Part shown: positions 1,172-12,000 of the stretch, one piece after another
Layout of the letters: every line of letters starts with the position of its first letter
Numbering within the stretch: position 1 is the first letter of the stretch
DNA from: an uncultured Eubacteriales bacterium
GTDB lineage: Bacteria; Bacillota; Clostridia; Lachnospirales; Lachnospiraceae
Length of the DNA stretch: 13,553 bases
Direction of reading: 5' to 3'
Assembly (NCBI GenBank): GCA_900313765.1
Contig: OMSN01000018.1
Span: 1 to 13,553 of the forward strand
Program-made: the position numbers and the translations under genes
Notes under the pieces: generated by a model
Databases searched by the model: none
What the model saw: only the letters and a program-made list of their open reading frames with translations
What the model was told of the DNA's origin: nothing

Positions 1172-2110
1172 ATGCCGATTCGAATTCAATCTGACCTGCC
1201 CGCAAGAGAGATCCTGGACCAGGAGAACATATTTGTCATGGATGAGGGACAGGCGGACCTGCAGGATATCAGACCGCTTGAGATCGTGATCCTGAATCTC
1301 ATGCCGCTCAAGCAGGACACGGAGCTTCAGCTTCTGCGCTCCCTCTCCAACACGCCGCTCCAGCTGAATATCACATTCATAGCGGCGAGCAGCCATGAGG
1401 CGAAGAATACCGGGGTAAACCACCTGAATAAGTTCTACCAGACCTTTGAGGATATCCGGGACAATGACTATGACGGCATGATCATCACCGGCGCACCTGT
1501 GGAACAGATTGAATATGAGCAGGTGGATTACTGGGAGGAACTGAAGGAGATCTTCGAGTGGACCAATGACCATGTCACATCCACGATCCATCTGTGCTGG
1601 GGTGCGCAGGCTGCCATGTATTATCATTACGGGATCCGGAAGAGAGAACTGGGATACAAACTGTTCGGGCTCTACCGGCATAAGGTGATGAACCGGAAGA
1701 TCCCGCTCGTCAGAGGATTCGACGATTATTTCTATGCGCCGCACAGCCGCTGGACAGAGGTGGCCAAGGAAGAGATCGTCCGGTGTGAAGACCTGATCAT
1801 CCTGGCAGAGTCCAGAGAAGCAGGCGTGTTCCTGGCGATGTCCAGAAACGGACGCCGCATCTTTGTGATGGGACACCCGGAGTATGACCGCAGGACGCTC
1901 GGTGCAGAGTATACCCGCGATGTTGAGAAAGGAATCGGGATCCAGCTTCCGAAGAACTATTTCCCGGATGATGACCCGGATAACAAGCCGAGGCTCCTGT
2001 GGAGGGCACATGCCAATACGCTGTATGCCAACTGGATCAATTATTATTGCTATCAGCTGACTCCGTATTCACTGGGGACCCGGGTGTACACATACGAGAA
2101 TCTTCACTGA
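1172..2110 (+). CDS. metAA: Homoserine O-acetyltransferase (MetA family)
   Basis: Acylates the hydroxyl of L-homoserine from acyl-CoA, the first committed step of methionine synthesis, in the cytoplasm. The 312-residue product is full length for the MetA (HTS) family and collinear with it: nucleophile Cys142 in HLCWGAQA, His234 and Glu236 in VMGHPEYD, and Lys47 in LMPLKQDTE. Residue 111 (GAPVEQI) is Glu. In this family Glu111 goes with acetyl-CoA and Gly111 with succinyl-CoA, so I call it an acetyltransferase despite the common 'succinyltransferase' label. The ribosome binding site GAAAGGAAG sits inside the end of ligA, about 9 bases before ATG. The gap to ligA is two bases, leaving no room for a SAM riboswitch directly upstream. 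The last 74 bases overlap the antisense SGNH hydrolase gene, and a perfect hairpin follows the stop. Confidence 0.95.
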   Translation: MPIRIQSDLPAREILDQENIFVMDEGQADLQDIRPLEIVILNLMPLKQDTELQLLRSLSNTPLQLNITFIAASSHEAKNTGVNHLNKFYQTFEDIRDNDYDGMIITGAPVEQIEYEQVDYWEELKEIFEWTNDHVTSTIHLCWGAQAAMYYHYGIRKRELGYKLFGLYRHKVMNRKIPLVRGFDDYFYAPHSRWTEVAKEEIVRCEDLIILAESREAGVFLAMSRNGRRIFVMGHPEYDRRTLGAEYTRDVEKGIGIQLPKNYFPDDDPDNKPRLLWRAHANTLYANWINYYCYQLTPYSLGTRVYTYENLH

Positions 2111-2681
2111 GAACCTGCTTCAGGTTCCGGGCAAAGACCTGATGTCCGATGGCTGTGAGATGAACACCGTCCCGGCAGGTCGGAAGACCCCACTCGGACG
2201 CGTCGATAAACCGCAGCTGGTAGTATTCGGCGACATACCGGTAATAAGCACCCAGACGCTGTGATTCTTCCACGGTCCGCGCATCGGTCCACAGACCCGG
2301 ATCCATGGCTGGCGGAGCGATCAGAAGGAGCAGATCGGCGATGCGCCGGTCCGTCCTAAGACAGACTTCCAGGAAGGAGGCCATCCGCTCGGCAACGGTC
2401 TGTGCGGAGGGGACATTCATGTTCAGAAGATCATTGGTCCCCAGCATGAGTGTGATAACGTCACATTTCCATCTGTCGATCTGAGAGGACAGCCAGGCTG
2501 CGGCATGTTCCGGTGACCGGGGAATGGAGACTCCGTTCTCGCCTGCATTGTATACGGTGAAGCTGCTCTCTGCATCGAGGATGCCGGTCCAGCGCTTCAT
2601 GCGGGCATAGCGGCTTCCTCCCACAGACTCGGGATCGTATCCATATGTGTTGCTGTCACCAACTGCCAGTATGCGGATCAT
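2037..2681 (-). CDS. SGNH/GDSL-family hydrolase (arylesterase-like)
   Basis: A 214-residue cytoplasmic esterase or acylhydrolase; no signal peptide is visible. All four SGNH blocks are present: nucleophile Ser10 in AVGDSNTYGYDP, block II glycine in NAGENG (45-50), LGTND (80-84, oxyanion Asn83), and the Asp171/His174 pair in DGVHLTAIGH. The GDSNTxGYDP start with a following RWTG resembles the arylesterase/acyltransferase subgroup that includes the mycobacterial acyltransferase MsAcT; the natural substrate is unknown. The ATG at 2681 was chosen because GGAGG precedes it by 9 bases and the SGNH fold begins there. The same frame is open for 181 more codons upstream, but that stretch is antisense to the next gene and has no domain. 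The hydrophilic tail after about residue 193 (many Ser, Asn) is encoded opposite the metA 3' end. Confidence 0.85.
   Translation of the reverse strand: MIRILAVGDSNTYGYDPESVGGSRYARMKRWTGILDAESSFTVYNAGENGVSIPRSPEHAAAWLSSQIDRWKCDVITLMLGTNDLLNMNVPSAQTVAERMASFLEVCLRTDRRIADLLLLIAPPAMDPGLWTDARTVEESQRLGAYYRYVAEYYQLRFIDASEWGLPTCRDGVHLTAIGHQVFARNLKQVLSEDSRMCTPGSPVNTESADSNNN
2111..2127. terminator. Perfect 7-bp hairpin directly after the metA stop
   Basis: GAACCTG-CTT-CAGGTTC begins at the base after the metA TGA. It is a perfect inverted repeat with a 3-base loop. No T-run follows on the plus strand, so it is not a classic intrinsic terminator; it may be a 3'-end stabiliser or weak terminator for ligA-metA. 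It lies inside the coding region of the convergent SGNH hydrolase (about residues 186-191), so it must also be read as codons on the other strand. Confidence 0.4.
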
Positions 2682-2735
2682 GGGCGGTTTCCTCCGTGGA
2701 TCAGGATTGATGGTAAGATCTATCTCTGCAGGTTC

Positions 2736-2741
2736 ATTATA
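2736..2741 (-). promoter_or_regulatory. Candidate -10 box for the SGNH hydrolase
   Basis: Read on the minus strand, the 90-base gap between the divergent genes contains a perfect TATAAT about 55 bases before the hydrolase ATG. No convincing -35 box is found 16-18 bases further upstream, so this is tentative. The plus-strand gene at 2772 must also start transcription near here; only a weak TTGATG (2707-2712) is seen, without a well-placed -10. Confidence 0.35.
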
Positions 2742-2771
2742 CCGCAGATTGGAAAGGAGCGTGCGTCCGAT

Positions 2772-3149
2772 ATGAAGTTTAAGGCGCTGACACATGAGCT
2801 CCCCGACGTGGAGGAGGATTACGTGAAGGCGGGTCGCTATGACCGCTGGAGAGTCGGAACACAGGCCTTCTATCTTCCCGGCGGATTCAACACTATAGCG
2901 TATCTTCCGCTGAATGAGATCACATCGGCCTATCCGCATGATTTCCGGGTGAAGGGCGGATGCAGCTGCGCCGGAACGATCGTGACCGGCGGTGTGGTGG
3001 TGAAGTATGGTGACAATGAGATCATCAAGGTGGTTCCCGGGAGTGAGAAATATGCTCCGAAACTGTTGAATGCACTGAAGGAACAGATCCCGGATCTGAA
3101 CACGGAGATCCCGGATATCTACAGGGACAGCACCCGGATACTGGGATGA
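2772..3149 (+). CDS. Conserved-looking hypothetical protein, 125 residues
   Basis: I do not recognise the family. The protein is soluble, with no signal peptide or membrane segment. It has alternating strand-like segments (RVGTQAFYLPGGFNTIAYLP, GTIVTGGVVVKYG) and a helical C-terminal part. A Cys-Ser-Cys pair (C64, C66) in KGGCSCAG is the most distinctive motif and could be redox-active or metal-binding, but nothing else supports this. AAGGAG lies 12 bases before the ATG. Its last codon overlaps the next gene (ATGA at 3146-3149), so it is probably translationally coupled to the corrinoid adenosyltransferase. The strand pattern could suit a small PH-like or beta-barrel fold; this is a guess. 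Confidence 0.75.
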   Translation: MKFKALTHELPDVEEDYVKAGRYDRWRVGTQAFYLPGGFNTIAYLPLNEITSAYPHDFRVKGGCSCAGTIVTGGVVVKYGDNEIIKVVPGSEKYAPKLLNALKEQIPDLNTEIPDIYRDSTRILG

Positions 3150-3700
3150 TTCACATGAATAAAGAGAGCAGGAAAGGCACCGGTCTGGTGCATATCTACA
3201 GCGGAGACGGAAAAGGAAAGACAACAGCCGGGATGGGACTGTGCGTCCGGGCAGCAGGCGCAGGATACAGGGTGCTGATCTGCCAGTTCATGAAGGACAA
3301 CTCCTCCTCGGAGCGAAGAGCCATGGAATCGATCGAAGGGATCACATTGGTCCGGGGAAGGGATCAGGTTTCCTTCAGTTTCTGCATGAGCGATGAGGAG
3401 AAGAAACAGGAGAGAGCATTCTGTGAACGCCTCTTTGAGGATACGGTTGAGCGTGCTGCAGCGGAACATTATGACGTGCTGTTTCTGGATGAAGTGCTCT
3501 ATGCCATTCGCGCAGGGTTCCTGAAGGAAGACCGGGTCGTCTCATTTCTAGAGAACAAGCCGGACCGTCTGGAAGTCATACTGACGGGACAAGGCCCTGG
3601 CAGCAGGCTTCTTGCCCTGTGTGATTACCACTCGGAGATCTGTAAGAGAAAGCATCCCTATGACAGGCAGCAGGAGGCAAGAGACGGGATCGAACGATAG
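3146..3700 (+). CDS. cobO: Corrinoid (cob(I)alamin) adenosyltransferase, CobO/BtuR type
   Basis: Transfers the 5'-deoxyadenosyl group of ATP to reduced cobalt of a corrinoid, giving the adenosylcobalamin coenzyme form. The 184-residue product has the family P-loop GDGKGKTTAGMG (from residue 20), the VLICQFMKDN strand (43-52), a Walker-B-like VLFLDEVLYAI (D115, E116), EVILTGQG (143-150), and the ending KRKHPYDRQQEARDGIE matching the family KHP motif. Family members usually read LTGR where this one reads LTGQ. The start at 3146 overlaps the previous stop as ATGA; an ATG at 3155 is a possible alternative. No other cobalamin-synthesis gene or B12 riboswitch is in the window, so a salvage role is likely. 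Confidence 0.93.
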   Translation: MIHMNKESRKGTGLVHIYSGDGKGKTTAGMGLCVRAAGAGYRVLICQFMKDNSSSERRAMESIEGITLVRGRDQVSFSFCMSDEEKKQERAFCERLFEDTVERAAAEHYDVLFLDEVLYAIRAGFLKEDRVVSFLENKPDRLEVILTGQGPGSRLLALCDYHSEICKRKHPYDRQQEARDGIER

Positions 3701-5049: not shown

Positions 5050-5103
5050 ATATGTCTCGGCTTTATATGCCGGTAAATAAAACATGTGAGTAAGGACAGT
5101 GAC

Positions 5104-6618
5104 ATGACGAATGTACTGGAATATCTTGAACATACAGCAGCTGAAGCTCCTGACAGAATTGCCGTGACGGACGGTGAGAAGGAGTATACCCGCGCGCGTT
5201 TCCTTGATCTGTGCCGCCGCGCAGGGAGTGCCCTTGCCGGCAGTGTCGCAAGACGCAGGCCGGTGATTGTCTTTATGGAGAAAGGCGCGGATACACTGAC
5301 AGCCTTCTTCGGGATTGTTTATGCCGGAGGATTCTATACACTGATCGATCCGCAGCTTCCCGCGCAGAGGCAGAGACAGATCCAGGACAGCCTGCATGCG
5401 GAAGTGGTCATCACAGACTGCGCGCATCTGGATCAGGCGAAGGAACTGTTTGCGGAGTGCAGGATCTGTGAGATCAGCGCACTTCATGAATGCAGCGAAG
5501 ACGCAGATGCCCTGAAGAAGATTCGTGAGAGGCATCTGGACACGGATCCGCTCTATGTCAACTTCACATCCGGATCCACAGGTGTGCCGAAGGGGGTTCT
5601 GATCTGTCACCGCTCAGTGATTGACTTTATCGGATTCTTCACGAAACAGTTCGGCATCCGGGAAGACGATGTGATCGCCAACCAGGCGCCGCTGGACTTC
5701 GATGTCTCGGTGAAGGATATCTACAGCGCCATGCTGACAGGAGCAAAACTGGTCCTGGTCCCGCGGCCTCTGTTCACAACGCCGGCTCCGCTCCTGGACT
5801 TCCTGTGCGAGCATGAAACCACGGTGATGATCTGGGCGGTCTCTGCACTGTGCCTGGTCAGCGCGTTCCACGGCCTGGAGTACAGAGTGCCGGATAAAGT
5901 CCGCATGGTGATGTTCAGCGGAGAGGTGATGCCGCTGAAGCGTCTGAAGAACTGGATGGAACATCTTCCGGATGCCGTATTCATCAATCTGTACGGTCCG
6001 ACTGAGATCACCTGTAACTGCACCTGGCATCAGATCGAGCGAGACAGAGATTATTCTGACGGGATCCCGATCGGACATTCATTTCCCAACGAAGAGACCT
6101 TCCTTCTGGATGAGAAGGACCACGAGATCACGCAGCCCGGCGTCACGGGCGAGATCTGTGTGCGCGGCACTGCGGTGGGGCTTGGTTACTGGAACATGCA
6201 GGAGCAGACCCGGGAGCGCTTCCGGGACGATCCGCGAACTCCGGAATACTCCTCCGTCATCTACTGCACAGGGGATCTGGGCAGGTACAATGAGCATGGG
6301 GAGATGATGTTCTGCGGCAGGCGGGATGACCAGGTGAAATATATGGGCCACCGCATAGAGCTTGCCGAAGTGGAACTGGCCATGAACCAGGTTCCCGGAG
6401 TGGAGAGAAGCTGCTGTATATTTGACGAGGCAAAGAGCAGACTGCACGGATTCTACTGCGGCAGCATTGACCGTGGAGAACTGGCGCAGACTCTGAAGGA
6501 AAAGCTCCCTGTGTTCATGATCCCGGGGCACCTTCACCAGGTGGAGAGCATGCCGGTCACGGGGCGCGGCAAGATCGACAGAAAGGCACTGATGCAGAGT
6601 CTGTCAAAAAGAAGATGA
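5104..6618 (+). CDS. DltA-like stand-alone amino acid adenylation enzyme
   Basis: Activates an amino acid as the acyl-AMP and loads it on the phosphopantetheine arm of a carrier protein, presumably the one at 7859. The 504 residues match DltA/NRPS A-domain length. Core motifs: FTSGSTGVPKG (154-164), amine-binding Asp200 in LDFDVSVKDIY, NLYGPTE (295-301), YCTGD (387-391), GRRDDQVKYMGHRIEL (405-420) and catalytic Lys490 in GRGKIDRK. Pocket residues by alignment to GrsA/DltA from memory: D200, V201, K204, M270, S272, L296, C304, N305. Bacillus DltA has Cys where S272 sits, a residue tied to D-Ala choice, and K204 is a charged residue where DltA has Met, so D-alanine is doubtful and an acidic amino acid is plausible. 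ATG 5104 has AAGGA 7 bases upstream; a GTG at 5086 is a less likely start. First gene of the operon. Confidence 0.9.
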   Translation: MTNVLEYLEHTAAEAPDRIAVTDGEKEYTRARFLDLCRRAGSALAGSVARRRPVIVFMEKGADTLTAFFGIVYAGGFYTLIDPQLPAQRQRQIQDSLHAEVVITDCAHLDQAKELFAECRICEISALHECSEDADALKKIRERHLDTDPLYVNFTSGSTGVPKGVLICHRSVIDFIGFFTKQFGIREDDVIANQAPLDFDVSVKDIYSAMLTGAKLVLVPRPLFTTPAPLLDFLCEHETTVMIWAVSALCLVSAFHGLEYRVPDKVRMVMFSGEVMPLKRLKNWMEHLPDAVFINLYGPTEITCNCTWHQIERDRDYSDGIPIGHSFPNEETFLLDEKDHEITQPGVTGEICVRGTAVGLGYWNMQEQTRERFRDDPRTPEYSSVIYCTGDLGRYNEHGEMMFCGRRDDQVKYMGHRIELAEVELAMNQVPGVERSCCIFDEAKSRLHGFYCGSIDRGELAQTLKEKLPVFMIPGHLHQVESMPVTGRGKIDRKALMQSLSKRR

Positions 6619-6634
6619 TTCAGAAAGGTTGATC

Positions 6635-7834
6635 ATGGATCAGTTGATGGTACAAAATATCCTGGACCGGTACCAGGCTCCCCTGTATGTATTTGAGGAG
6701 CGCCTGTTAAATGAGAGAGTGCGTCTGCTTCGCGATGCGCTTCCGAAGACAGTGAAGATGTGCTTCGCCGTTAAGGCGAACCCGTTCATCGGACAGTTCC
6801 TGACAGGCCGTGTGGACCGGTTTGAGATCTGTTCTCCCGGGGAGATGTATATCTGTGAGAAGCAGGGAATCCCTGCGAAGGATTACGTACTGTCCGGTGT
6901 CCACAAGGACGAGACGTCCATGCGGTATGCCTTTGAACATGGACTGTGCGAGGGGATTCTCACGGTGGAATCAGTCTCGCAGTTTGAACTGCTCAAAGCC
7001 CTCAGTGCGCAGTACCGGCAGCCTGTCCGACTGCTGCTGCGTCTGACCAGCGGGAACCAGTTCGGATTGGAGACGCAGGAAGTCATGGAGATCCTGAGAG
7101 ACTATGGATGCCCTGCGGAGGATGCCCAGAGTCTGCTCACGATCGCAGGAATCCAGTTTTTCTCCGGCACGCAGAAGACTTCGCTGAAGAAGCACCGCCG
7201 GGAACTGGCCATGCTGGATGATCTGATCGACACAATCCGCGAAGAACTGGGATATGAAGTGCCGGAGCTGGAGTACGGTCCTGGATTCCCGGCTGCTTAT
7301 TTTGTAGGGGAAGAGTTCGACGAGACTTCGTATCTGGCAGAGTTCTCACAGCTTCTGGAAGGCATGCGCAACCGCCTTCCCATCACGCTGGAACTGGGGC
7401 GCGGGATAGCAGCCTCCTGCGGCAGTTTCCTCAGCCGGGTGGCGGATGTGAAATGTAACCACAAGGAGCATTACGCGATCCTGGATTCGGGCATACACCA
7501 CCTGACTTACTATGGACAGTTCATGGCAATGAAGCATCCGGTCTGTGAAGTGTGGCCGCCAAGGCAGCAGGAGGAAGGGGACACGGTATGGAATCTGTGC
7601 GGTTCCCTGTGTACGACCAACGATCTGCTGGTCAAGAAACTGCCGGTCCATGATCTGAAGATCGGGGATGTACTGGTCTTTCACAATACAGGAGCATACA
7701 GCATGACGGAAGGCATATCGCTGTTTCTGAGCAGGGATCTGCCGGCTGTTGTATGGATGAAGGAAAATGGAGAAATGCAGCTCCTTCGGCAGGCGCAGCC
7801 TGTCTGGGAACTGAATTCGGGGATACTACAATAA
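6635..7834 (+). CDS. Fold-type III PLP-dependent decarboxylase, likely acting on a carrier-bound amino acid
   Basis: A 399-residue enzyme of the ornithine/diaminopimelate decarboxylase family: N-terminal alanine-racemase-like barrel, then a beta domain. PLP Lys47 lies in CFAVKANP, LELGRGIAASCG (252-263) replaces the usual E-P-G-R, and the second-domain motif is LCGSLCTTND (321-330) followed by GAYSMTEG. It departs from lysine-making LysA at key places: C-T-T-N-D instead of C-E-S-x-D, GIQFFSGTQ (172-180) instead of GxHxHIGSQ, and EYGPGF instead of GGGF. Similar F-x-G-x-Q and C-T-x-x-D variants are, as I recall, found in decarboxylases that sit with an AMP ligase and an acyl carrier protein, such as the exosortase-A-associated set. 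AGAAAGG lies 6 bases before ATG 6635. It sits between the adenylation and carrier genes, with a 16-base gap before it, so it probably acts on the loaded substrate. It could instead make a free amine or amino acid. Confidence 0.85.
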   Translation: MDQLMVQNILDRYQAPLYVFEERLLNERVRLLRDALPKTVKMCFAVKANPFIGQFLTGRVDRFEICSPGEMYICEKQGIPAKDYVLSGVHKDETSMRYAFEHGLCEGILTVESVSQFELLKALSAQYRQPVRLLLRLTSGNQFGLETQEVMEILRDYGCPAEDAQSLLTIAGIQFFSGTQKTSLKKHRRELAMLDDLIDTIREELGYEVPELEYGPGFPAAYFVGEEFDETSYLAEFSQLLEGMRNRLPITLELGRGIAASCGSFLSRVADVKCNHKEHYAILDSGIHHLTYYGQFMAMKHPVCEVWPPRQQEEGDTVWNLCGSLCTTNDLLVKKLPVHDLKIGDVLVFHNTGAYSMTEGISLFLSRDLPAVVWMKENGEMQLLRQAQPVWELNSGILQ

Positions 7835-7858
7835 ACAATATACAAGGAGACAGACATT

Positions 7859-8086
7859 ATGGAACGACTTTATGAGATTCTTGAAGAAATGCAGCCGGAG
7901 TTCGATTATCACAAGGAAACAGCCCTGATTGATGATCATCTTCTCGACTCCCTTACAGTGCTGGCACTGATCTCGGAGCTGGAGGACGAATTCGACATCA
8001 CGATCCCTGCAGTGGAGATCGTTCCGGAGAACTTCAATTCCGCAGAGGCTATGTGGGCACTGATCACACGCCTTATGGAAGAGTGA
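7859..8086 (+). CDS. Acyl/aminoacyl carrier protein (DltC-like)
   Basis: A 75-residue acidic four-helix carrier. Ser31 in LLDSLTVLALISELEDEF is the expected phosphopantetheine attachment site, and FDITIPAVEIVPENFNSAEA matches the helix II-III region of DltC and ACPs. It should carry the amino acid activated by the DltA-like enzyme as a thioester and present it to the decarboxylase and then to the MBOAT. AAGGAGA lies 9 bases before the ATG. Spacing is 24 bases from the decarboxylase and 8 to the MBOAT gene. The length equals DltC. No phosphopantetheinyl transferase is in the window, so one must be supplied elsewhere. Confidence 0.9.
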   Translation: MERLYEILEEMQPEFDYHKETALIDDHLLDSLTVLALISELEDEFDITIPAVEIVPENFNSAEAMWALITRLMEE

Positions 8087-8094
8087 GCTGATTC

Positions 8095-9687
8095 ATGCTG
8101 AGTTATTGTTCCATTGAATACCTGCTGGTATTCCTTCCCGTCGTATTCCTGGGATACCAGATCCTGCCGCAGACTGCGCGAAGATATTTTCTTCTGGCCG
8201 CAAGCTACGGCTTTTTCTGGTATCTGAGCGGACCGCTTGTGGTCTGGCATGTGGCGGTATGCCTGTGCGTGTGGCTTGTCGGCCTTCGCCTGCAGCATCT
8301 GCTGGATGCGCGCGGCCTGCAGCTGAAGGAGGCCGAGCGCAGTGCGCGCAAGGGGATCCGGGCCGCTTATGCCAGACGGATGAGCCGGTGGGTCATAGTT
8401 GCCGGAGTGGTCTGCTTCGGCATCCTTCTTTCCCTGAAATACACACCGTTCTTTACGGAGAATCTGAATTCTCTCTTCCGGCATCTTGGCCTGCATCTGC
8501 AGCTGAGGGTGCCTTCCTTTGCTGTTCCCATCGGGATCTCCTTCTATACGCTGCAGGCCATGTCCTATGTGTTTGACGTGCAGAAGGAAAAGCTTCAGGC
8601 GGAGCGTAATTTACTGCGCCTCACACTGTGGCTGTCCTTCTTCCCGCTGCTGATGGAAGGTCCGATCGCACGCTTCGGAGCGACTGCGGAACAGATCTGG
8701 AATGTCCCGCGCATCAAAGGTGAGAACTTCCAGAAGGGACTGTGGCGGATCCTCTACGGTGTAATGAAGAAAATGATCGTTGCGGACCGTGTCAATACGG
8801 CTGTGGAGCTGCTCTATACCGAGTATGCCTCCTATGACGGAGGCATGGTCTTCCTGGCGGCGGTTCTGTTTACCGTGCAGGAATACCTGGAATTCTCCGG
8901 GACGATCGATATCGTGATCGGAACGGGAGAGTGCCTGGGCATCTTTCTTCCGGAGAACTTCAACCAGCCCTTCTTCTCGAAGACGATCTCTGAGTTCTGG
9001 ACCAGGTGGCACATTTCCCTTGGCGCGTGGCTCAAGGACTATCTGTTCTATCCGCTGTCGATGTCAGAGCCGCTCAAGAAACTGACGAAGAAGTGCCGCA
9101 CACGCTTCGGCAACCATTACGGACCGCTGGTAACCAGCTCTATAGCGCTGTTTGCGGTCTGGCTGTTCAACGGACTGTGGCACGGCGCGGGCTGGAGTTA
9201 TATCTTCTTCGGCATGTATCATTTTGCCCTGATCGTGACCGGCAATCTTCTGGCTCCGGTTGTGATCGGATTCTGCGAGAAGCATAAGATCAACCGCAGA
9301 GTATTCCCGTATCAGCTGTTCCAGATGATTCGGACCGCCATACTGGTCGCGATCGGTGAGATGTTCTTCCGTGCGCTCAGCCTGAAGCATGGTCTGGAGA
9401 TGTTCATGATCATGATCCGGCATGCGTCGGTTCGCTCCTTTGCGGACGGCACATGGCTGAAACTTGGAATGGACCTGCAGGATTATCTCATCGTCGCAGC
9501 GATGATCGTGTTTGTGTTTGTGATCAGCCTTCTGAAGGAAAGAGGGTGTCAGGTGAGAGAGCAGCTGTACCGCAGGCCTGTGATCGTGCGTGCTCTGGTG
9601 ACGGCCATGCTGATCAGCCTGGTGCTGCTGTTTGGCGCATACGGAACCGGCTATGTACCCGTAGACCCGATCTACGCGAACTTCTGA
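8095..9687 (+). CDS. MBOAT family membrane O-acyltransferase (AlgI/DltB/PatA type)
   Basis: A polytopic membrane enzyme that takes an acyl or aminoacyl group from a cytoplasmic donor and passes it across the membrane to an extracellular acceptor. Seen: many hydrophobic segments, FFPLLMEGPIARFG (182-195), FWTRWHISLGAWLKDYLFYP (301-320, His306), and the catalytic FNGLWHGAGWSYIFFGMYH with His363 as the invariant MBOAT histidine. At 530 residues it is clearly longer than DltB (about 400) and closer to AlgI/PatA. A cytoplasmic-looking basic loop lies near 72-98. Eight bases separate it from the carrier gene; its own ribosome binding site is weak, so coupling is likely. The neighbouring carrier suggests its donor is aminoacyl-carrier protein, as in the Dlt system. 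The acceptor polymer is unknown. Confidence 0.92.
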   Translation: MLSYCSIEYLLVFLPVVFLGYQILPQTARRYFLLAASYGFFWYLSGPLVVWHVAVCLCVWLVGLRLQHLLDARGLQLKEAERSARKGIRAAYARRMSRWVIVAGVVCFGILLSLKYTPFFTENLNSLFRHLGLHLQLRVPSFAVPIGISFYTLQAMSYVFDVQKEKLQAERNLLRLTLWLSFFPLLMEGPIARFGATAEQIWNVPRIKGENFQKGLWRILYGVMKKMIVADRVNTAVELLYTEYASYDGGMVFLAAVLFTVQEYLEFSGTIDIVIGTGECLGIFLPENFNQPFFSKTISEFWTRWHISLGAWLKDYLFYPLSMSEPLKKLTKKCRTRFGNHYGPLVTSSIALFAVWLFNGLWHGAGWSYIFFGMYHFALIVTGNLLAPVVIGFCEKHKINRRVFPYQLFQMIRTAILVAIGEMFFRALSLKHGLEMFMIMIRHASVRSFADGTWLKLGMDLQDYLIVAAMIVFVFVISLLKERGCQVREQLYRRPVIVRALVTAMLISLVLLFGAYGTGYVPVDPIYANF

Positions 9688-9697
9688 GGAGGCGGAA

Positions 9698-10657
9698 ATG
9701 AAATATCTGAAACAGATCCTTCCGTGGTTTCTGACGCTCCTCCTGCTTGCCGGAATGCTGTATCTTCTGTCCATCCTGACCGGACCGAAGAACAATACAC
9801 AGGAAGCCGGGCATGATGCCTGGGCAGCGTACGGATTCGAGGCGGAAGCGCCGGACAGTATCGATATGTTTATGCTGGGAGACAGCGAGTCCAGAACCTC
9901 GATCTCCCCGATGGAACTGTTCCACAATGAAGGGATCACTTCCTACTGCTGCGGCATCAATTCCAATATCCTGTGCGAAGTGGATGACATGCTCCATCTC
10001 GTTCTGAAGGAGCAGCATCCGAAACTGATCATACTGGAATGCAATGTCATCTTCTCGCCGTTTGACTGGAAAGACGCACTGGAGACAACCACAGCCCGTA
10101 TATTCCCCGTAATCCGCTGGCACAATCGCTGGAAGACACTTACACCGGAAGATTTCACCAGCATCCCCGACTACACCAGCGTAGAAGTCAGGAAAGGATA
10201 CTATCATTCAACATATGCAGATCCCGCGCCGCCCTTCCTGCTGGACCGGTATATGGAGGCGAGCGAGGACAGAGAACCGCTGGATGGGATCAACCGCTGG
10301 TATCTGAAGAAGATCGCCGCCACCTGCAGAAAGCAGGGGATCTCGCTGGTGCTGATGAGCATGCCCAGCGTGAAGAACTGGACGAGTCTGAAGCACAATA
10401 CCTGTGCGGATCTGGCCGCGGAGCTGGACATCCCGTTTGTGGACCTGAATGAAATGAGAGAGGAGATCCCCATTGACTGGAACCTGGACACCAGAGACCG
10501 GGGGGACCATCTGAATAATGACGGTATGAAGAAGGTCTGTACATGGCTCGGACCATGGCTGAAAGAGCAGTATGCCCTGGAAGATCACAGAGGGGACCCG
10601 GCTTACGATGCGACCTGGACAGATATGTATGAAGAGTATGTGGAGTGGATCTCGTAA
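9698..10657 (+). CDS. Membrane-anchored SGNH-fold protein, partner of the MBOAT (DltD/AlgJ-like role)
   Basis: A 319-residue protein with one N-terminal membrane helix (ILPWFLTLLLLAGMLYLL, 7-24) and an extracellular SGNH-like domain. Nucleophile Ser63 lies in MLGDSESRTSI; the C-terminal Asp/His motif is DTRDRGDHLNNDG, with His271 and Asp267 or Asp270. A GINSN segment (86-90) fits block II. In Dlt, alginate and peptidoglycan acetylation systems an SGNH protein next to the MBOAT completes transfer to the polymer, and this gene occupies that place. It is shorter than typical DltD and does not read as a clear orthologue. AGGAGG lies 5 bases before the ATG, with 10 bases after the MBOAT stop. It is the last gene of the operon; a strong terminator follows. 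Confidence 0.82.
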   Translation: MKYLKQILPWFLTLLLLAGMLYLLSILTGPKNNTQEAGHDAWAAYGFEAEAPDSIDMFMLGDSESRTSISPMELFHNEGITSYCCGINSNILCEVDDMLHLVLKEQHPKLIILECNVIFSPFDWKDALETTTARIFPVIRWHNRWKTLTPEDFTSIPDYTSVEVRKGYYHSTYADPAPPFLLDRYMEASEDREPLDGINRWYLKKIAATCRKQGISLVLMSMPSVKNWTSLKHNTCADLAAELDIPFVDLNEMREEIPIDWNLDTRDRGDHLNNDGMKKVCTWLGPWLKEQYALEDHRGDPAYDATWTDMYEEYVEWIS

Positions 10658-10770: not shown

Positions 10771-12000
10771 TTACCAGATACTGACCTTCTGGCCGAACGC
10801 ATTGGTATAACTGGTAAGTCCTTTCTTGTCATACTTGGTGCTGGTGCATTTCGGATACTTCTTCTCATTGAACTTGTGGGAATGTTGCTGCATATATTTC
10901 GTGGATTTCAGGAAATATCTGTAATCCGGGATCGTATTGTGATTGCTCTCTCCAATGAGCGGATCGTCCCAGGTGACATCCACGTGATACCATTTATTAC
11001 CGATCCGGACCATATTCCAGGTATGCGTCTCGCCGCCTGCTGAACCTTCCACGATCCTGCAGGGAATGTGCAGGGATTTCATGACCACCTGGAATCCGTA
11101 TGCATATCCATCGCATACACACAACTTACGGATCAGGGAACCCTGGGAAGTATGAGCGACCCCCGGGATCTTCCCCTTCTGATGACTGTCATAGTCATAC
11201 CGGACGTTCCGGATCATCCAGTCGTGAACTGCCTTGATCCTGGCGACAGTATCCAGCTTGTCGGAAGAGAGCTTCTCTGATTTGCGGATCTGCTTGACTC
11301 TCTGTGATTCGGTCTTGCTGTATACGGTGACCTTATACTGGTATTCCACATCGCCGCACACGGCGGTGATGACAGCAGTGCCTTGCTTCTTCCCCTGTAC
11401 TTTTCCATTCTTTGTGACCGACGCAATCTTCTTATTGCTGGATGAATATGTCACGTTCTCAACTGCGTTGAACAGCGGCATCATCTGTGTGTCTTTCGGA
11501 AGGAGATAGACTTTCTTTCTGGAAAAGCACGTTTTTCGCGACGTCGTGACGGGAATATGATCTGTTACACACATGTTGTAGACAGCGGAATCCTTCGGCG
11601 CTGATATATTCGTCAGAGAAGGGACGCTCTGAATGAAACGGTTCTTCACTCTTGTGCTGCCTGAGAGGAAGCACACATACCGAAGATTGCGGCAGTCTGC
11701 GATCGCCTGATCCGAGACATAGGCGACTGTGGCAGGCACGACGATGGCACGCACAGCATTGTTGTTGTAGAACATGTGGCGGTTCATCTCCGTGATCTCC
11801 GCAGGGATCGTGACGATCGTGGCCACACCGGTATACTGGTAGCCGTACGCGTTCTCTTCATAGCCGGGAATTACCTTTGTTTCTTCATAATCTGCATCAG
11901 GAGGCTCCTCCGCATATGCACTGAGCGGCAGCAGAAGCATGGTCAGTGCCGCCAGGAATAGCAGGAGTCTGCGTGCAGAACAGCTTCCTTTATGGAACAT
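10771..12000 (-). CDS. Secreted transglutaminase-like protein with BspA-type repeat and Big2-like domain
   Basis: A 409-residue exported protein. The signal peptide is clear (RRLLLFLAALTMLLLPLSAYA, probable cut after residue 30). Residues about 58-145 look like BspA-type leucine-rich repeats (VTIPAEITEMNRHMFYNN, then IVVPATVAYVSDQAIADC). Residues about 165-226 resemble a bacterial Ig-like (Big2) domain (SSSNKKIASVTKNGKVQGKK). The C-terminal half is a transglutaminase/protease-like core with a full triad: Cys296 in CVCDGYAYGF, His326 in GETHTWNM and Asp341 in YHVDVTWDD. It may crosslink or cleave extracellular protein or peptide; the substrate cannot be read from sequence. No LPxTG sorting motif or membrane anchor is seen at the C-terminus. 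AGGAG lies 9 bases before the ATG. Confidence 0.9.
   Translation of the reverse strand: MFHKGSCSARRLLLFLAALTMLLLPLSAYAEEPPDADYEETKVIPGYEENAYGYQYTGVATIVTIPAEITEMNRHMFYNNNAVRAIVVPATVAYVSDQAIADCRNLRYVCFLSGSTRVKNRFIQSVPSLTNISAPKDSAVYNMCVTDHIPVTTSRKTCFSRKKVYLLPKDTQMMPLFNAVENVTYSSSNKKIASVTKNGKVQGKKQGTAVITAVCGDVEYQYKVTVYSKTESQRVKQIRKSEKLSSDKLDTVARIKAVHDWMIRNVRYDYDSHQKGKIPGVAHTSQGSLIRKLCVCDGYAYGFQVVMKSLHIPCRIVEGSAGGETHTWNMVRIGNKWYHVDVTWDDPLIGESNHNTIPDYRYFLKSTKYMQQHSHKFNEKKYPKCTSTKYDKKGLTSYTNAFGQKVSIW

Follow-up and report, generated by a model that had tools for sequence, protein, structure and literature searches.

A Dlt-like operon with a PLP decarboxylase in Lachnospiraceae, a candidate for carrier-fed aminoacylation of the cell surface

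In a stretch of 13,553 nucleotides from an uncultured Eubacteriales bacterium of the Lachnospiraceae (assembly GCA_900313765.1, contig OMSN01000018.1; hereafter the window), five genes for an adenylation protein (the ligase), a fold-III pyridoxal phosphate (PLP) decarboxylase, a carrier protein, a membrane-bound O-acyltransferase (MBOAT) and a membrane-anchored SGNH-type protein form an operon that is probably an undescribed relative of the system placing D-alanine on bacterial walls. The reading that we favor, with moderate confidence, is that of a carrier-fed surface-aminoacylation system in which Asp or Glu would be loaded on the carrier, decarboxylated there, and esterified to a surface polymer by the MBOAT and the SGNH protein; in kind, we rate the operon as a variation on carrier-fed MBOAT–SGNH surface aminoacylation. 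D-alanylation is a major means of setting envelope charge in Gram-positive bacteria, and a distinct aminoacylation route, whose decarboxylase occurs in 85 of the 396 genomes sampled from the bacterial family, could be a missing envelope chemistry of this abundant gut group. A table in PMC10877564 lists a complete dltABCD in none of eight gut commensals, most of them Lachnospiraceae. If true, our reading would bring together two enzyme logics known apart, would reveal an MBOAT that is carrier-linked and has its own tyrosine shuttle, and would give transglutaminase-like surface proteins a testable substrate.

Gene set, conserved residues and predicted chemistry

The operon comprises the following features:

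5092..5096, plus strand: likely ribosome-binding site AAGGA for the ATG at 5104, 7 bases upstream of that start
5104..6618, plus strand: adenylation protein, the ligase (AMP-binding, 1.1e-64), with an alternative in-frame GTG start at 5086
6635..7834, plus strand: fold-III PLP decarboxylase (Orn_Arg_deC_N, 1.7e-15; Orn_DAP_Arg_deC, 1.1e-13), with an alternative TTG start at 6629
7859..8086, plus strand: carrier protein of 75 amino acids (PP-binding, 2.7e-5), with Ser31 (7949-7951) as likely phosphopantetheine site
8095..9687, plus strand: MBOAT acyltransferase of 530 amino acids (Pfam MBOAT, 2.5e-10)
9667..9684, plus strand: C-terminal hexapeptide PIYANF of the MBOAT, including Tyr527, a PatA-type acyl-shuttle motif
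9698..10657, plus strand: membrane-anchored SGNH-type protein (predicted structure and conserved residues)

With starts at ATG 5104 and ATG 6635, the five plus-strand open reading frames (ORFs) are separated by 16, 24, 8 and 10 bases, exactly the spacing given in an earlier note on this DNA, which had proposed five tightly spaced genes. The protein identities proposed there are also supported, by Pfam for four genes (cut-off 0.01; this, like the ORF and E-value thresholds, was our own choice) and by a structure model for the SGNH protein. The window is contig 136 of the host genome, which amounts to 2.2 Mb and is 75% complete.

The ligase passes the NCBIfam model TIGR01733 (335.4 bits for a cut-off of 317.4) and has the pocket code DVKSMSLCNK, the positions of which we assigned in GrsA numbering on the basis of motifs, without a GrsA alignment. 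Asp235 and Lys239 are both present in 88 of the 95 decarboxylase-linked ligases, 80 of which have the codes DVKSMSLCNK, DVKSLSLCNK or DVKSISVCNK. In known enzymes, Asp235 contacts the substrate amine (PMC11253843, in the part available), and it is the equivalent of Asp230 of VinN; Lys239 would presumably bind an acid group. Among six decarboxylase-free ligases, five carry SM(L/S/T)(S/T)LALDIK, devoid of Asp235, when the sixth (L157) carries DAKSAGLGMK. Ligase–carrier–MBOAT–SGNH operons with the former type of code and no decarboxylase are found at L154, L156, L158, L160 and L161, and their ligases perhaps act on a hydroxy acid or on a beta-amino acid. Six operons that do have the decarboxylase (L110, L117, L123, L132, L133 and L134) display a different gene order along with the code IARSCSQASK (Arg at 239, no Asp235).

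The decarboxylase harbors the PLP lysine, Cys-x3-Asp motif and tyrosine of carrier-bound decarboxylases, and these residues are nearly invariant in its family: K49 in 82 of 83 aligned rows, Cys328 in 82 of 82 ungapped rows, Asp332 in 83 of 83 and Tyr357 in 82 of 83. The Glu that follows the Cys in LysA binds the far end of diaminopimelate (DAP); the genome's own LysA-like protein has this Glu, whereas the decarboxylase family has Thr (93/100) or Ser (7/100). BtrK also has Thr at this position, and shares CT and GxHH stretches with the window decarboxylase. An identity as LysA was rejected, the score being 162.9 bits for a cut-off of 297.9 (TIGR01048) and the genome containing a separate LysA-like gene.

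As for the three remaining proteins, Ser31 is present in 80 of 80 aligned carriers and His363 in 71 of 71 ungapped MBOAT rows. The structure model of the MBOAT has a predicted local distance difference test score (pLDDT) of 93.5, its nearest solved structures are DltB, and DltB is also its sole solved relative by profile search (6.3e-37). A tyrosine hexapeptide pattern lies close to the C-terminus in 99 of 101 MBOATs (GTYNPF and ASYNPF being two unusual forms), with Y..F within the last 16 residues in 92 of 101; that of the window, PIYANF, resembles the FxYxxF of PatA-type MBOATs with Pro instead of Phe as first residue. The SGNH protein has no Pfam match at 0.01 and no NCBIfam match; its model, built from 71 sequences (pLDDT 95, predicted template modeling score 0.92), displays an N-terminal helix (2-28) followed by an SGNH-type fold, with G61, D267 and H271 invariant, and S63 conserved to at least 90%, across these 71 sequences, and DltD stands at rank 24 of its Foldseek list (E 5.3e-5).

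From this gene set and its linkage, and from the residues, folds and motif read in sequences or models, we infer a substrate, a decarboxylation on the carrier, a shuttle, and an ester, which would follow one another in four steps. The ligase would activate an acidic amino acid (L-Asp, activated at the side-chain carboxyl, is the likeliest, with Glu as second candidate) and load it on the phosphopantetheine arm of the carrier; the PLP enzyme, by analogy with its family and with precedents, would then strip the alpha-carboxyl on the carrier, giving a beta-alanyl- (or 4-aminobutyryl-) carrier. The MBOAT, which has the motif, may move this group across the membrane onto its own Tyr527 by the chemistry that PatA applies to acetyl, and the membrane-anchored SGNH protein, given its modeled fold and triad, could take the group from the tyrosine and esterify a surface polymer. 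The net effect would be an envelope displaying simple primary amines, in bacteria most of which have no canonical dlt.

Relation to known systems

Like the window, the Dlt system gathers an adenylation protein, a carrier, an MBOAT and an SGNH protein in one operon; it differs by the absence of a decarboxylase, by its pocket, by a separate DltX where the window MBOAT has a tyrosine motif, and by its DltD, a family to which the window SGNH protein does not belong. The ligase scores 260 bits for the 559.85 required by the DltA model TIGR01734, the carrier remains below both DltC models (33 vs. 68 and 17.5 vs. 52.35 bits) and the MBOAT below the DltB model TIGR04091 (146.7 vs. 375 bits). The DltD domain PF04914 was found by Pfam neither in the SGNH protein nor in the 75%-complete genome, and no candidate for the DltX microprotein was found among the ORFs of 20-90 amino acids at the operon ends and in its gaps. 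Since the DltA, DltB and DltC models are missed, no DltD domain was found in the 75%-complete genome and the tyrosine motif is of PatA type, we rejected a dlt operon with an insert: the operon is Dlt-like, not Dlt. Hence, the Dlt-like gene set announced in the earlier note stands, when its description as such an operon with an inserted decarboxylase has to be amended in this respect. A protein above the cut-off for canonical DltA exists in 2 of the 100 genomes sampled from the family, and none reaches it in the host genome of the window; Met at 239 and Cys at 301 are found in two proteins above this cut-off, the pocket of which is unlike that of the window ligase.

Decarboxylation of carrier-bound Asp is in itself already known elsewhere: in AFC-BC11, AfcQ loads L-Asp on AfcK, where AfcP decarboxylates it to beta-alanine (PMC12186527). 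VinN, VinL and VinO perform the same on-carrier chemistry with methyl-Asp for vicenistatin (PMC11284099), such a decarboxylation is proposed for BolO/BolC/BolN in bolagladin, and BtrK decarboxylates an iso-glutamyl carrier thioester in butirosin (both PMC7756342). These systems, as described in the parts available, share with the window the loading of a stand-alone carrier and a PLP decarboxylase; however, they feed natural products, whereas the window-type trio is linked to an MBOAT and an SGNH protein in 73 of 100 loci. PatA receives acetyl on the Tyr of a C-terminal hexapeptide, which PatB then uses, when Dlt relies on a separate DltX (PMC12148441), and PatA–PatB pairs share with the window this hexapeptide (FIYANF in NgPatA, PIYANF here) and an SGNH partner. 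In contrast, the available part of that paper describes such pairs as fed by acyl-CoA, with no carrier, when a carrier and a ligase are linked to the pair here, so that two designs meet in the window; the carrier suggests that the MBOAT uses a donor other than acyl-CoA. Related enzyme types are also found in the exosortase-A-associated ligase and decarboxylase, but membership of that trio was rejected (205.2 vs. 592.35 bits for TIGR03098 and 153.2 vs. 478.45 for TIGR03099). In an open-access library, to which our search was confined to the exclusion of subscription papers and preprints, no description of the five-gene set was found.

Conservation of the cassette

At E <= 1e-40, 85 of the 396 genomes sampled from the bacterial family have a member of the decarboxylase family, as do 4 of 398 genomes sampled across the phylum. 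We collected 100 decarboxylase loci seeded on the decarboxylase at this threshold, except for L159, which entered through its MBOAT, and L005, which entered through genome contigs; L001-L004 were left out of the counts as repeats. All five genes are clustered on one strand, in varying order, in 73 of these 100 loci (61 away from contig ends, 12 near an end), which is more than chance, although shared ancestry among species implies that such counts are not independent events. The ligase, decarboxylase and carrier are together present in 90 loci, and the MBOAT and SGNH protein in 76.

In 12 untruncated loci, only the ligase, decarboxylase and carrier lie on the operon strand. For 8 of these, the genome encodes an MBOAT at E < 1e-90 elsewhere, among which G223, the sole one of the 8 genomes that was read, has an MBOAT–SGNH pair at L164; at L142, the MBOAT and SGNH genes adjoin on the opposite strand, L077 belongs to a genome whose best MBOAT is weak, and L049 and L050 are outside the genome sample searched for MBOATs. 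Since 332 of 396 genomes have an MBOAT of this type at 1e-40, the occurrence of one away from the locus lends weak support.

Looking from the MBOAT side, the best 40 matches to the window MBOAT (a cut chosen after viewing the list, with coordinates compared by eye) comprise 28 with the decarboxylase set alongside, 4 with a ligase and carrier only (L154, L156, L157 and L158) and 8 lone MBOAT–SGNH pairs (L147-L153 and L155). The decarboxylase is thus present in 28 of 32 loci combining ligase, carrier and MBOAT, when the earlier note had held that its idea would fail if homologous operons usually lacked this gene. The logic proposed in that note, decarboxylation on a carrier joined to MBOAT–SGNH transfer, persists as the best reading, minus the derivation from dlt by insertion. 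The 8 lone pairs come from 8 genomes of 5 genera, all of which encode the decarboxylase, versus 85 of 396 overall. Two of these pairs, in genomes of one genus, precede genes for large proteins whose start is rich in Arg and Ser and which match a beta-propeller in part (L147, 3038-5038; L148, 10786-12966). Finally, of 20 MBOAT loci retrieved, 11 are pairs standing alone, 6 have a ligase and carrier while lacking the decarboxylase, 2 are partnerless MBOATs, and one is L159, whose decarboxylase had been overlooked by the 1e-40 search.

Around the operons, two clusters of neighbors occur in 28 and 16 of 82 loci, and every other in at most 6. The representative of the first has response-regulator, GGDEF and HD domains; this cluster is met around L045-L124, with 20 of its ORFs within 500 bases of operon genes.

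Several observations weigh against the reading that we favor. The full five-gene set is not displayed by 27 of 100 loci, 7 of which are cut by an end; at L077, the trio sits among sugar genes in a genome whose best MBOAT is weak (3.6e-45), and no polymer-synthesis gene indicates what the acceptor might be. Six of the 95 decarboxylase-linked ligases lack Asp235 (IARSCSQASK) and one lacks Lys239 (DYYSCTM--K). Phe231, Lys330 and Arg331 of VinN appear unmatched, Val, Cys and Asn standing there according to positions that we assigned from motifs and not from an alignment with VinN, and the ligase loop at the site shortened in VinN is as long as that of DltA. Lastly, among solved structures, it is a DAP decarboxylase that matches the window decarboxylase best (100.7 bits, vs. 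93.7 for BtrK).

Sister operon, transglutaminase-like proteins and alternative readings

Two further features go beyond the earlier note: a sister operon with a racemase, and a link with transglutaminase-like proteins. Upstream of the ligase of L157 lies an amino-acid racemase gene (TIGR00035, 210.9 bits for a cut-off of 93.1). Ligases at least 55% identical to that of L157 over their full length are found in 38 of 396 genomes, a count that includes the genome of the query and both fusion genomes introduced below, and we read 20 such loci (L173-L192) in addition to L157. A transglutaminase-core protein is found in 19 of these 21 loci, and a racemase ahead of the ligase in 19; racemase, transglutaminase, ligase, carrier, MBOAT and SGNH protein occur together in 17, L175, one of the 4 incomplete loci, being a 4.2-kb contig. 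Pfam confirmed all 5 further racemases and all 5 further transglutaminase cores submitted to it, and Asp235 and Lys239 are kept in 21 of 21 ligases. All four sister racemases scored with TIGR00035 pass it; the cysteate racemase model is likewise passed by three of them and by that of L157. The family thus indicates an acidic substrate without fixing it to Asp. Both operon types coexist in 8 genomes (G118, G166, G241, G313, G320, G338, G372 and G385).

The window itself has a transglutaminase-like gene, convergent with the operon:

10771..12000, minus strand: secreted transglutaminase-like protein with LRR_5 and Big_2 domains (Transglut_core, 3.1e-13)

Such genes accompany 7 of 100 decarboxylase loci, with a profile built from four of the proteins later counted and with 4 of the 7 positive loci from a single genus: the window and its same-genus relatives L045, L046 and L052, where the gene occupies the same convergent place, L065, where it lies inside the operon, and two fusions. 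In the latter (L086, 5741-8560; L092, 6313-9657), the decarboxylase is continued by one membrane segment, immunoglobulin-like domains and a transglutaminase core; it sits where sister operons have the racemase, next to a ligase of sister type (59 and 61% identity to that of L157). In total, 20 proteins (P0121-P0140) fuse a decarboxylase to a transglutaminase core, plus one with a partial decarboxylase; the PLP-Lys and Cys-Asp motifs are kept, one membrane segment is present in 20/20, and a Cys-His-Asp pattern of our own definition in 19/20. The transglutaminase superfamily also includes proteases, and the host genome, at 2.2 Mb, has three transglutaminase-like genes; the window neighbor is a possible partner outside the operon. 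On this basis, we tentatively propose, while thinking it somewhat unlikely, that the window belongs to a two-branch envelope system for acidic amino acids, one branch using a racemase and the other decarboxylation. Both would load the residue on a carrier and deliver it to a surface polymer by way of a self-shuttling MBOAT and an SGNH protein, after which the transglutaminase-like surface protein would attach or cross-link proteins or polymers through the displayed group. Decarboxylation could here turn a hindered alpha-amine into an open primary amine that transglutaminases accept.

Three alternatives to an Asp-derived group esterified to a surface polymer deserve consideration. The first keeps the same architecture but has 4-aminobutyrate as the displayed group, Glu being activated through the gamma-carboxyl and then losing its alpha-carboxyl on the carrier, in the manner of butirosin biosynthesis. 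BtrK, which acts on an iso-glutamyl carrier thioester according to the available part of PMC7756342, indeed ranks second among the distinct solved relatives of the decarboxylase, with the CT and GxHH stretches in common, and the family of the sister racemases does not discriminate between Asp and Glu; yet the precedents for the adenylation ligase, in the sources as available, use Asp or methyl-Asp, and we consider this variant unlikely. Alternatively, the PLP enzyme could in effect be a racemase, of a free or carrier-bound substrate, replacing the sister racemase one for one and sending a D-acidic amino acid to the surface. This would suit L086 and L092, in which the PLP enzyme takes the place of the Asp/Glu-type racemase next to a ligase of the same clade, as well as the match to the Pfam alanine-racemase N-domain (7.8e-7) and the alanine racemase names of some database entries. 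However, the decarboxylase C-terminal domain and Cys-x3-Asp motif are kept, the best NCBIfam matches are decarboxylases, and pocket residues around 237-240 are unlike between decarboxylase-linked and racemase-linked ligases, which makes a racemase improbable.

It seems more improbable still that the trio makes a beta-aminoacyl starter for a small secreted natural product, or an N-acyl group for a sugar, with the MBOAT–SGNH pair acylating that product and not a wall polymer. The characterized trios, in the sources as available, do serve natural products, and L121 has a thioesterase gene and an asparagine-synthase-like gene close by. In the same vein, L077 (5988-12162) has its ligase–decarboxylase–carrier trio amid sugar-modifying genes, beside a hexapeptide-repeat protein, and its product is perhaps an N-acyl sugar and not a surface ester. 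Nevertheless, a Pfam scan of 10 window proteins revealed no synthase and no condensation enzyme, no neighbor cluster beyond the two common ones exceeds 6 loci, and the MBOAT–SGNH pairs described in the available part of PMC12148441 act on envelope polymers.

Elsewhere in the window, an ORF at 2037-3224 on the minus strand, adjoining the ORF at 1172-2110, has a long N-terminal extension whose coding is improbable, and carries a GDSL-like acylhydrolase domain (8e-18).

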